Assembly (NCBI RefSeq): GCF_030066995.1
Contig: NZ_JASJAP010000001.1
Coordinates: 665,230-729,229, forward strand
Source of the DNA: Erythrobacter sp.
Lineage (GTDB): Bacteria > Pseudomonadota > Alphaproteobacteria > Sphingomonadales > Sphingomonadaceae
Reading direction: 5' to 3'
DNA length: 64,000 bases
Position 1 is the first letter of the stretch, and each line of letters begins with the position of its first letter. Position numbers and translations under genes: made by a program. The notes below the pieces were generated by a model, which did not search any database, was not told the origin of the DNA, and saw only the letters and a program-made list of their open reading frames with translations. This document shows positions 22,746-25,675 of this stretch, piece after piece.

Positions 22746-23044
22746 CCCGCAGGCCTCCATTGCGGCGCTGACTGAGAAGGACAGCCCGTTCTGGCTGCGT
22801 TTGCACCGGTGTTTGCTTCGGCGCTCTCATCGGCGCTCTCGTCGGCGTTCGCATCGGCGTTCGCATCGGCGTTCGCATCGGCGTCTGCATCGATGATTTC
22901 GACAGCATCGACAGCACCGACAGAATCGATAGGGGCATGAGCGCAGGGGTCATGACGTGATCGCGGCCTCCGACAGGGGGAGACACTCACCCGAGCGATC
23001 GGCGCCGGGTCCGTAATGTTCCCCTGTTGCCTAACTTTGTAACG
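22746..23044. other. Repeat-bearing stretch with no clear gene
   Basis: About 300 bp between the winged-helix gene and the small PANG-repeat gene. A minus-strand frame at 22718-22990 would read an Asp-Ala-Asn repeat, and another frame reads a Met-Arg-Thr-Pro repeat. Neither has convincing flanking protein sequence, and both overlap the regulator start. I therefore call no gene here. Confidence 0.5.
22821..22892. repeat. 12-bp minisatellite, six units
   Basis: There are six head-to-tail units of a 12-mer, the central three identical (GCGTTCGCATCG) and the outer ones with two to three changes (GCGCTCTCATCG, GCGTCTGCATCG). It lies upstream of the winged-helix regulator and within its likely 5' leader. 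Confidence 0.85.
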
Positions 23045-23404
23045 TCAGTCAGTCGCTTTGGCTTTACGGGCAAATACGTGGGGCGCCGGAAAATCGGTCC
23101 TAAAGGTCCGTTCTGGTTGCTTTTTTTCGATGCGCTCCCGCCGGTTCGGCGCGCCCTTCGTCGCTCTAGCAGGAGGCGCCGGGGCCCGGGCCGCATCGCG
23201 GCGCAATTGGTGAATGGCGGCGTCCAGATGCGCGGCCGCTTTCAACGCGCCGATCCGGTCCAATTCGATCAACTGGCCTTCCAGAGTGTGAAGGATACGC
23301 GTGCGAAGTCCATCTGCGCCGTGTGCAGGGCCGTTTGCAGGGCCGTTTGCAGGGCCGTTTGCAGGGGCGTTTGCAGGGGCGTGTGCCGGTTTGCCGTTTT
23401 CCAA
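23045..23404 (-). CDS. Small protein with PANG repeats and amphipathic helix
   Basis: The 119-residue protein starts at a TTG (23404) preceded by CAGGAA with 7-nt spacing. The N-terminal third is built of PAN/PANG repeats encoded by a 12-bp minisatellite. It then shows a well-formed amphipathic helix LRTRILHTLEGQLIELDRIG and AAAHLDAAIHQLRRDA, and a basic tail. The helix has the leucine spacing of a small dimer. I do not recognise a family. The repeat may change in copy number without frameshift. Confidence 0.6.
   Translation of the reverse strand: MENGKPAHAPANAPANGPANGPANGPAHGADGLRTRILHTLEGQLIELDRIGALKAAAHLDAAIHQLRRDAARAPAPPARATKGAPNRRERIEKKQPERTFRTDFPAPHVFARKAKATD
23318..23389. repeat. 12-bp minisatellite, six units, in coding sequence
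   Basis: Six units of (G)CCGTTTGCAGG-type 12-mers, three in the middle identical. In the coding frame of the minus strand they give PANG/PAHG repeats. It is unrelated in sequence to the 12-mer at 22821, though period and unit number agree. Confidence 0.85.
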
Positions 23405-23621: not shown

Positions 23622-24041
23622 TTAACCGAAGCGCTCGACCAGCTTGAGCAGCGCAATCGCCGCCTTCGCCGCTTCGCCGCCCTTGTCCTTCTGGGCCGGG
23701 TCGGCGCGGACCAGCGCCTGCTGTTCGTTTTCGGTGGTAAGGATGCCGTTGCCGATGGGAATGCCGTCCATGGTCAGCGCCATGATCGCGCGCGCGCTTT
23801 CGCCTGCGACGATTTCGAAATGGTAGGTTTCTCCCCGGATAACCACGCCGATGGCGACGAACGCGTCGAAATCCCCGCTCTCGGCAGCGAGCGCGATGGC
23901 GCCGGGCACTTCCAGCGCGCCGGGCACCGTCAGCACCTTGGCCTCGTGTCCGGCGGCTTCTATGGCCGCCTTTGCGCCGGCGATGAGCATGTCGTTGAGG
24001 TGCGCGTAAAATCGCGCTTCGACGATGAGGAAGCGGGCCAT
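23622..24041 (-). CDS. ribH: 6,7-dimethyl-8-ribityllumazine synthase
   Basis: Condenses 5-amino-6-ribitylaminouracil with dihydroxybutanone phosphate to lumazine, the penultimate step of riboflavin synthesis. Length is 139 residues, normal for the short form. Visible are [31 protein letters not shown] and the phosphate-side segment [15 protein letters not shown]. It lies 15 bp downstream of ribB, so the two form an operon. Confidence 0.97.
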
Positions 24042-24056: not shown

Positions 24057-25319
24057 TCAGGCGATGGATTTGAAATCGGTGATGGTGATGCCGTAGCCTT
24101 CGAGCGCGACCAGATCGGGGCGCGAATTGGACAGGAGCACCATGTCGTGGACGCCCAGATCCGCCAGGATTTGCGAGCCGATGCCGATATTGCGGATCTC
24201 CTCGTCCTTGGTCCAGTCGCCGCCTGTGCCCACGCGCGTGGTGAGGATGACGATGACGCCCGAGCCGTGCTCGCCGATCGCGCTCATCGCACGCTGGAGC
24301 GTGTTCTGACGCGGGCCCGGGGCACCGAGCACGTCGTCGAACACGGAGATGGGATGGACGCGGGCGAGGGTGGGCTCGCCTTCGATCACGCGGCCCTTTT
24401 GCAGCACATAGGCCTCTTCGTTCGCGATGCGATCGCGATAGGTGATGAGCCGCCAGTGGCCACCGTAATCGCTCTCGAACCCGCTTTCGCCGAGCCGCTC
24501 GACCAGATGATCGTTGCGCATGCGGTAGGCGATGAGATCGCGGATGGTGCCGATCTTGAGATCGTGCAGGCGGGCAAAGCGGACCAGGTCGTCGAGCCGC
24601 GCCATCGTGCCGTCCTCGTTCATGATCTCGCAGATCACCCCCGAGGGATTGAGGCCGGCGAGGCGCGAGATGTCCACCGCCGCCTCGGTATGCCCGGCGC
24701 GCACCAGCGTACCGCCGTCGCGCGCGGAGAGGGGGAAGACATGGCCGGGTGTGACGATATCGTCGGCGCCCTTGGTTGCGTCGATCGCGACCGCGACGGT
24801 GCGCGCGCGGTCGGCGGCCGAGATGCCGGTGGTGACGCCTTCCTTCGCTTCGATCGAGATCGTGAAGGCGGTCTGCATCGCTTCTGTGTTGTTGCGGCTC
24901 ATCGGCTCAAGGCCGAGCGCATCGACGCGCGCGCGGTCGAGCGCGAGGCAGATGAGCCCGCGGCCATGGGTCGCCATGAAATTGATCGCGGCGGGCGTTG
25001 CCATTTGCGCAGGGATGATGAGATCGCCCTCGTTCTCGCGATCCTCGTCATCGACCAGGATGTACATCTTGCCGTTGCGCGCCTCGTCGATGATTTCCTC
25101 GATCCCGACCAGAACGGGGCGCTCATCGTTGGAATTGAGGAAGGCTTCGAGCTTCTGGAGGGTTTCGGCGGTCGGGTTCCAGTCATCCTGCGCCGCGTCG
25201 CGCAGGGTGTTGGCGTGGAGGCCGGCGGCGCGGGCGAGACCGGCGCGGGTCATCTCGCCGCTGGTAACGAGGTCGCGCACGCGCTCTATGGTCGATGGTG
25301 TGACAGTTGATGTGTTCAT
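24057..25319 (-). CDS. ribB: 3,4-dihydroxy-2-butanone 4-phosphate synthase with N-terminal HTH and degenerate GTP cyclohydrolase II domain
   Basis: This protein has 420 residues in three parts. Residues 10-62 look like a small Xre-type helix-turn-helix (GEMTRAGLARAAGLHANTLR, then ETLQKLEAFL). Residues about 70-275 are a complete RibB domain (ILVDDEDRENEGDL, MATHGRGLICLAL, GHTEAAVDISRLAG, CEIMNEDGTMAR). Residues about 285-420 align with GTP cyclohydrolase II, but the zinc cysteines and the QEGRNIGL motif are gone, so only the dihydroxybutanone step should work here. GTP cyclohydrolase II must come from another gene. ribH follows. A dyad at 25331-25348 precedes the start. Confidence 0.93.
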   Translation of the reverse strand: MNTSTVTPSTIERVRDLVTSGEMTRAGLARAAGLHANTLRDAAQDDWNPTAETLQKLEAFLNSNDERPVLVGIEEIIDEARNGKMYILVDDEDRENEGDLIIPAQMATPAAINFMATHGRGLICLALDRARVDALGLEPMSRNNTEAMQTAFTISIEAKEGVTTGISAADRARTVAVAIDATKGADDIVTPGHVFPLSARDGGTLVRAGHTEAAVDISRLAGLNPSGVICEIMNEDGTMARLDDLVRFARLHDLKIGTIRDLIAYRMRNDHLVERLGESGFESDYGGHWRLITYRDRIANEEAYVLQKGRVIEGEPTLARVHPISVFDDVLGAPGPRQNTLQRAMSAIGEHGSGVIVILTTRVGTGGDWTKDEEIRNIGIGSQILADLGVHDMVLLSNSRPDLVALEGYGITITDFKSIA

Positions 25320-25675
25320 GCAGGCTCAATATCACATTTCAATGTGATTGCAAGGCGAGGCGCGGCGCCCCTCAAGCGGTGTTTGATCAACTAACTCCGA
25401 GCCGCGTGGGCTTAATCCCATGCCAATGTCGTTCAACAGGACGATTGTGGGGCTGGTGGACGCCCCAGCGAATGGGAGCGTGCGGTGCACAGGGTGTTGC
25501 CGCTGAGCGCTGCGCAAGCGATACCGATCCCCTGTCACGAGCCACGATCAGGCCGCCAGAGCCTGCGCGCTGCTCGTTCATGCAAGGCAACAAGGCACGG
25601 CGCCGGGCGAACCACGTAGGTTTCCGCATATAGGCGAAGCCGTCCACCAGGTACCCAAAGCGCGGGAGCGAGGCG
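25320..25675. other. Intergenic region between ribB and the TauE/SafE gene
   Basis: About 356 bp with the ribB operator at one end and the promoter of the transporter at the other. Frames seen inside have no protein character. I see no riboswitch, tRNA or terminator hairpin with a T-tract. Confidence 0.5.
25331..25348. promoter_or_regulatory. Palindromic operator candidate in front of ribB
   Basis: ATCACATT-TC-AATGTGAT is a perfect 8-bp-arm dyad centred 20 bp upstream of the ribB start codon, where a repressor would block the promoter or ribosome site. Because RibB itself carries an HTH, self-binding is a direct hypothesis. There is no FMN riboswitch signature nearby. Confidence 0.6.

Follow-up and report, generated by a model that had tools for sequence, protein, structure and literature searches.

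A RibB enzyme with an N-terminal helix-turn-helix domain in the Sphingomonadaceae: a candidate repressor of its own gene

The HTH-RibBX gene and its upstream dyad

The stretch of DNA analysed here, referred to as the window, comprises 64,000 nucleotides of an Erythrobacter sp. genome (contig NZ_JASJAP010000001.1, positions 665,230 to 729,229) and carries a riboflavin synthesis gene whose product may act as its own repressor. The gene is located on the minus strand (24057-25319), begins with ATG and encodes a protein of 420 amino acids, as assigned from the list of open reading frames (ORFs) and from Pfam. The product, HTH-RibBX, is built of three parts, all on the same strand: an Xre/Cro-C1-like helix-turn-helix (HTH) domain, assigned by weak profile and structure-model matches (about residues 10-65; 25125-25292), a dihydroxybutanone phosphate (DHBP) synthase domain, RibB, assigned by Pfam and motifs (residues 74-265; 24525-25100), and a degenerate GTP cyclohydrolase II (GCHII)-like X domain free of cysteine (residues 278-415; 24075-24488). 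The proposed operator is an exact inverted repeat, ATCACATT-GA-AATGTGAT when read on the minus strand, at 25331-25348; its core, TCACA-N6-TGTGA, occupies 25332-25347, and the two half-sites are spaced 11 bp from centre to centre. A first-pass annotation of this DNA had placed a perfect dyad 12 bp before the start codon: the repeat is indeed perfect, and the gap to the ATG is 11 nt. The window holds no other match to the dyad within 3 mismatches (0.11 expected).

The Pfam family DHBP_synthase matches residues 74-265 with 275.8 bits, and the motifs DDEDRENEGD, GHTEA and ICE, invariant across 32 aligned members, are all found in the window protein. GTP_cyclohydro2 matches residues 278-415 with 96.8 bits. 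The only cysteines of the protein are residues 124 and 230, neither in the GCHII-like half, and the zinc site of GCHII is therefore gone. The ribA equivalog model gives 27.9 bits against a cut-off of 205.85, and a separate, better GCHII match (194.8 bits) is encoded elsewhere in the genome (G000:C5:182684-183190). The Pfam matches and cysteine positions agree with the first-pass annotation, which had described an HTH-like N terminus followed by a full DHBP synthase and a GCHII half that has lost its cysteines. A whole-genome protein search with HTH-RibBX finds a single match in the window's genome, so that this protein is probably the only DHBP synthase of the genome and is predicted to be still catalytically working. 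The top sequence match among solved structures, 6mnz (373 amino acids, named DHBP synthase), begins to align at residue 71.

A RibB joined to a cysteine-less X domain, with a separate ribA in the genome, is also present in Shewanella oneidensis, Aeromonas salmonicida and Bradyrhizobium, where it is called RibBX. According to the RibBX sections of a paper that cites the original 2013 RibBX report (PMC10012899), the S. oneidensis X domain has no GCHII activity and modulates the activity of RibB by an unexplained mechanism; those sections mention no HTH. Judged by its sequence, the window protein is a RibBX with an added N-terminal HTH, and it differs in this from the known RibBX; 54 of the 202 RibBX loci collected here are without the domain.

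The HTH resembles the Cro/C1 type, weakly by each single measure. On the whole window protein HTH_3 scores 17.1 bits (residues 22-62), and on the domain alone 21.0 bits, still under the Pfam cut-off of 23; HTH_3, HTH_26 and HTH_31 each match 20-21 of 37 family members at E <= 0.1. An AlphaFold2 (AF2) model of the domain has a predicted local distance difference test (pLDDT) score of 81.5, and its Foldseek neighbours are mostly Xre/Cro-C1-type regulators, restriction-modification controller proteins among them, all at E above 0.1. The full-length AF2 model was poor and was left unused. A profile search of the domain against solved structures returned nothing below E 0.08. Invariant residues of the 37 members include, within the predicted recognition segment, G, L, H, N, L and R, followed by W-N-P.

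Co-occurrence of the HTH and the dyad

The N-terminal region has 3360 protein matches, and all 120 of those listed carry a RibB domain. When the HTH alignment was searched against the class, with at most 20 first-look candidates scored per genome, 10 of 289 genomes matched. Three of these matches are strong (E below 1e-35) and belong to the window's family; the remaining seven fall in open frames that do not exceed 280 amino acids and are too short for the fusion. The HTH-RibBX fusion thus looks like an invention of this family. A genome of a sister family encodes a standalone 94-residue relative of the HTH domain (L204:1446-1730, minus strand) beside an opposite-strand ORF that resembles, by eye, a phage-type repressor; the dyad is found there no better than at 2 mismatches, which is chance level.

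The main sample consists of 202 RibBX loci from 195 genomes, namely 36 of the window's genus (its own included), 141 others of the family and 18 of the order. The search gave no match in 5 of the 149 family genomes, in one genus genome (G006) and in two order genomes (G038 and G056); partial matches (G048, G050, G055), the RibBX match of G052 and weak second ribB matches stand outside the 202. A hidden Markov model (HMM) made from 30 genus-level HTHs splits the loci cleanly into 148 with the HTH, including the 30 seeds (scores of 73.5 or more), and 54 without it (3.2 or less). TCACA-N6-TGTGA occurs just upstream of the HTH in 148/148 HTH-bearing loci, with no mismatch in 108, one in 35 and two in 5. 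Among the 54 HTH-less loci it is absent at up to 1 mismatch and present in four at 2. The reversed control pattern never falls under 2 mismatches in the HTH-bearing loci, and reaches 2 or fewer in 2 of the 54 HTH-less ones (one at 1, one at 2).

A second sample of 80 loci from named genomes gives the same picture. All 11 HTH-bearing loci, at least two of them shared with the first sample, have the dyad at 2 mismatches or fewer; of the 69 HTH-less loci one has no upstream sequence, and 0 of the 68 that could be scanned have it at 1 or fewer. The named holders of the fusion belong to Porphyrobacter, Novosphingobium, Sphingopyxis, Blastomonas, Allopontixanthobacter and unnamed Sphingomonadales.

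A FastTree phylogeny of 201 rows, from which L203 was excluded as too short, requires 12 switches of the HTH state, and supported branches account for at least 8 of these. When 8 independent pairs are compared, the dyad changes in the same direction as the HTH in an average of 7.5 and in the opposite direction in none (median p 0.0078, up to 0.031); with a 2-mismatch threshold the average becomes 7.7. The first-pass annotation had asked whether relatives with the fusion also have the dyad, and no fusion without it appeared. That the HTH and the dyad belong together is supported by this comparison.

Over the 148 loci the logo is roughly aTCACATtnnaATGTGATA, in which the half-sites are near-invariant while the spacer and the surroundings vary. 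In 39 of the 148 loci the best dyad has another (2 mismatches or fewer) at a distance of 29-34 bp, against 2 sites for the reversed control; a second nearby site of this kind is often seen with cooperative repressors. In 28 loci (27 of the window's genus, plus L032) a weak second dyad with 1-2 mismatches is found 44 bp downstream, inside the coding start. This second dyad is not present in the window's own gene, and the reversed control gives 7 sites in all within 100 bp of the best dyad. Threonine in the first nine codons of 30 genus-level loci is encoded by ACA in 62 of 72 cases, as compared with 61 of 751 in the body of the genes (the ATG chosen by the script for L025, one of the 30, is wrong). 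This ACA bias may point to an additional signal at the DNA level in the start of the coding region, possibly a coding-region operator.

Number of dyad targets

TCACA-N6-TGTGA occurs in one place in the 3.3 Mb genome of the window. The stricter pattern TCACAT-N4-ATGTGA was found at 65 places, spread over 63 of the 149 family genomes, and 61 of the places precede an HTH-RibBX gene; none precedes an HTH-less RibBX gene, and the reversed control is not found in these genomes. Of the four remaining sites (L210, L211, L212 and L213), L210 is inside the end of an ORF and L211 has an intergenic position some 1.5 kb away from ribBX, and the ribBX dyad of that genome (L056) has 2 mismatches. In 33 further genomes of the genus TCACAY-N4-RTGTGA is found at 24 places in 22 genomes, against 2 for its reversed control, and 23 of the 24 precede HTH-RibBX, including both copies of the gene in G036. 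The dyad thus appears to have nearly a single target, HTH-ribBX itself.

A second, standalone ribB is present in 19 genus genomes (L313-L331). The dyad is not found at these genes within 1 mismatch, though L323 has it at 2, and no Rfam family matches them; the idea of a regulon controlled in trans was rejected on this ground.

Promoter and transcription start

The promoter is proposed from sequence conservation, because an E. coli-type promoter scan of the window stretch found none. The predicted -35 element, TTGCAA (25348-25353, minus strand), and the predicted -10 element, TATTGA (25326-25331, minus strand), flank the dyad, and the start codon is 6 nt beyond the latter. TTG is found to the left of the dyad in 100 of the 148 HTH-bearing loci, TA directly to the right of the core in 94, and both in 72. 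The right arm ends in GCTA in nine loci, in agreement with the alphaproteobacterial -10 element known from Caulobacter, GCTANAWC. The distance from dyad to ATG is mostly 12-13 nt: counted from the dyad, the first in-frame start comes after 12 nt in 67 loci and after no more than 15 nt in 123 of 148. With a -10 element to the right of the dyad, transcription is expected to start at about the ATG and to give a leaderless mRNA. Shine-Dalgarno-like 4-mers, counted at crudely chosen starts, are found at 22 of 148 HTH-bearing and 29 of 54 HTH-less genes, and their rarity in the former would fit a leaderless mRNA. The position of the dyad suggests repression of such an mRNA.

The FMN riboswitch and gene neighbourhood

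Feedback on riboflavin synthesis in bacteria is usually exerted by the flavin mononucleotide (FMN) riboswitch. No Rfam family, this one included, reaches its threshold in the window, in accord with the first-pass annotation, which had seen no FMN riboswitch. In the multi-genome searches, for which stricter filters were used so that weak matches can be lost, the FMN riboswitch (RF00050) was found in 0/149 family genomes, in 10 of 80 genomes of the order (every one of the ten belongs to a sister family), and over cut-off in 31 of 190 genomes of the alphaproteobacterial class. The family would accordingly either have lost the riboswitch or never had it. In two genomes of a sister family (f5; G040 and G052, confirmed for G052; locus L312) the riboswitch is directly upstream of a standalone ribB, not of ribBX.

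The gene following ribBX is ribH, encoding lumazine synthase (23622-24041, minus strand; ORF list and Pfam). It begins 15 nt downstream, and the two are presumably in one operon. In the window's genome ribE is on another contig, just behind a RibD-like ORF (read by eye). Among the relatives ribE is encoded upstream of ribBX in 43 of 54 HTH-less genes as against 39 of 148 HTH-bearing ones, a count that covers up to 1 kb before residue 70 and less in shorter loci. HTH-less ribBX is thus mostly behind ribE and HTH-ribBX mostly not; the dyad is still present in those 39 HTH-bearing loci. Farther from ribBX, two arrays of 12-bp tandem repeats (22797-22892, 8 copies; 23318-23386, 5.8 copies) are located inside small minus-strand ORFs, the peptides of which are ADANADAN- and ANGPANGP-like repeats.

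A model of autorepression and its alternatives

The interpretation that we favour, with a probability of about 0.8, is that HTH-RibBX is a DHBP synthase that also represses its own gene via the TCACA-N6-TGTGA dyad. Its basis is comparative: the sequences show that the fusion and the dyad exist and occur closely together, that the dyad has almost no other target, and that the site precedes the gene. Homodimerization of the enzyme would pair the N-terminal HTHs, and the HTH dimer would bind the dyad, which in the ribBX-ribH promoter has the -35-like element on one side and the -10-like element on the other. The bound dimer would cover the promoter and block RNA polymerase. The transcript would have its 5' end at the start codon or only a few nucleotides from it, which would leave no leader to hold a riboswitch. 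The first-pass annotation had likewise proposed an enzyme that represses itself; the pairing of HTH and dyad is borne out by their co-occurrence and joint change on the tree, and the placement of the site on the predicted promoter fits the repression.

Two points weigh against this interpretation. The HTH and the dyad are neighbours, and one event could move or lose both. The HTH is also not the sole riboswitch-free state, since HTH-less members of the family are without a riboswitch as well. The same fact limits the earlier suggestion that self-repression replaces riboswitch control, which is favoured by the 149 riboswitch-free family genomes and disfavoured by the HTH-less ones among them.

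How the repression would be tuned is speculative. A ligand (FMN, riboflavin or ribulose 5-phosphate) might be bound by the enzyme or by the X domain; plain concentration-dependent autorepression is equally allowed. The most elaborate form of the model is a ligand-sensing autorepressor, in which flavin or ribulose 5-phosphate on the X or RibB domain controls operator binding, with X as the sensor. One bacterial family would then regulate vitamin B2 synthesis by a feedback loop that relies on a protein, acts on a leaderless mRNA and stands in for the FMN riboswitch. We put this form forward tentatively and at somewhat less than even odds.

Among the alternatives, the one that survives best, though it is unlikely, is that a separate transcription factor binds the dyad and that the HTH of RibBX is a relic or an aid to oligomerization. 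The HTH does score under the Pfam cut-off, and its proposed binding to the dyad comes from sequence comparison. The dyad is, however, confined to HTH-encoding genes, since at 1 mismatch or fewer it is not present at the 54 HTH-less RibBX genes or the 19 standalone ribB paralogues of the genus; the scarcity of other sites in the genomes is also odd for an independent regulator. A CRP/FNR-type site was considered and rejected: such sites have the opposite orientation, TGTGA-N6-TCACA, which is perfect in 0/148 HTH-bearing loci and has one mismatch in 3.

That HTH-RibBX activates its promoter instead of repressing it is quite improbable. The restriction-modification controller proteins among the fold neighbours of the HTH can act as autoactivators, but the dyad takes up the interval from the -35-like to the -10-like element, a position at which a bound dimer should keep the polymerase out.

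We also give very little weight to mere linkage, that is, to the promoter, dyad and HTH being gained and lost jointly as one segment, the dyad having no function tied to the HTH. The three are found within about 40 bp in the window, and a single event could explain their joint presence. However, half-sites that stay nearly invariant over 148 loci with a variable spacer and flanks need selection; and at the 11 HTH-less genes for which ribE is missing from the part of the upstream DNA covered, the dyad is matched with 3 mismatches at best. An RNA hairpin in the leader, acting as an attenuator or translational element, was rejected as highly improbable: the repeat is perfect and near the start codon, but complementarity at the inner pairs exceeds that of independent half-sites only slightly (126 of 148 against 119.4, 119 against 109.7 and 71 against 64.9) and at the outer pairs not at all, C/A mismatches often occur within the inner pairs (14 and 16 of 148), there is no Rfam match, and transcription is predicted to start downstream of the dyad.

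Relation to known enzyme-repressors

BirA and PutA are bacterial enzymes with a fused DNA-binding domain that repress their own pathway. They resemble HTH-RibBX in this fusion of a DNA-binding domain to a metabolic enzyme; their enzymes, DNA-binding folds and ligands are other than those of HTH-RibBX, which, unlike them, has its predicted site at essentially one gene. Sequence comparison of HTH-RibBX finds an enzyme, a DNA-binding-like domain and a conserved own-gene site that at 1 mismatch or fewer occurs only with that domain. The archaeal riboflavin kinase-regulator RbkR, for which the relevant part of PMC8305020 lists an N-terminal HTH and a double function as enzyme and gene regulator, is likewise a flavin-pathway enzyme; it is likened here by description and differs in being another enzyme from another domain of life. 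Literature searches, which largely miss subscription papers, found no description of an HTH-RibB fusion or its operator. Term searches of the available text of two reviews of riboflavin regulation returned no helix-turn-helix, RbkR or Sphingo- (PMC12542839) and no helix-turn-helix or RbkR (PMC13028884). By analogy, HTH-RibBX would join enzyme-repressors such as BirA, PutA and archaeal RbkR as a further variant of this type.

The FMN riboswitch is the usual explanation of riboflavin control in bacteria, yet no more than the 31 of 190 class genomes mentioned above had one over the cut-off. In the family of the window a pathway enzyme appears to have become the transcriptional regulator of its own gene, and its proposed operator is so specific that the window's genome has it in one place. 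HTH-RibBX brings the role of the RibBX X domain within reach of direct testing and represents a compact feedback device made of a single gene.
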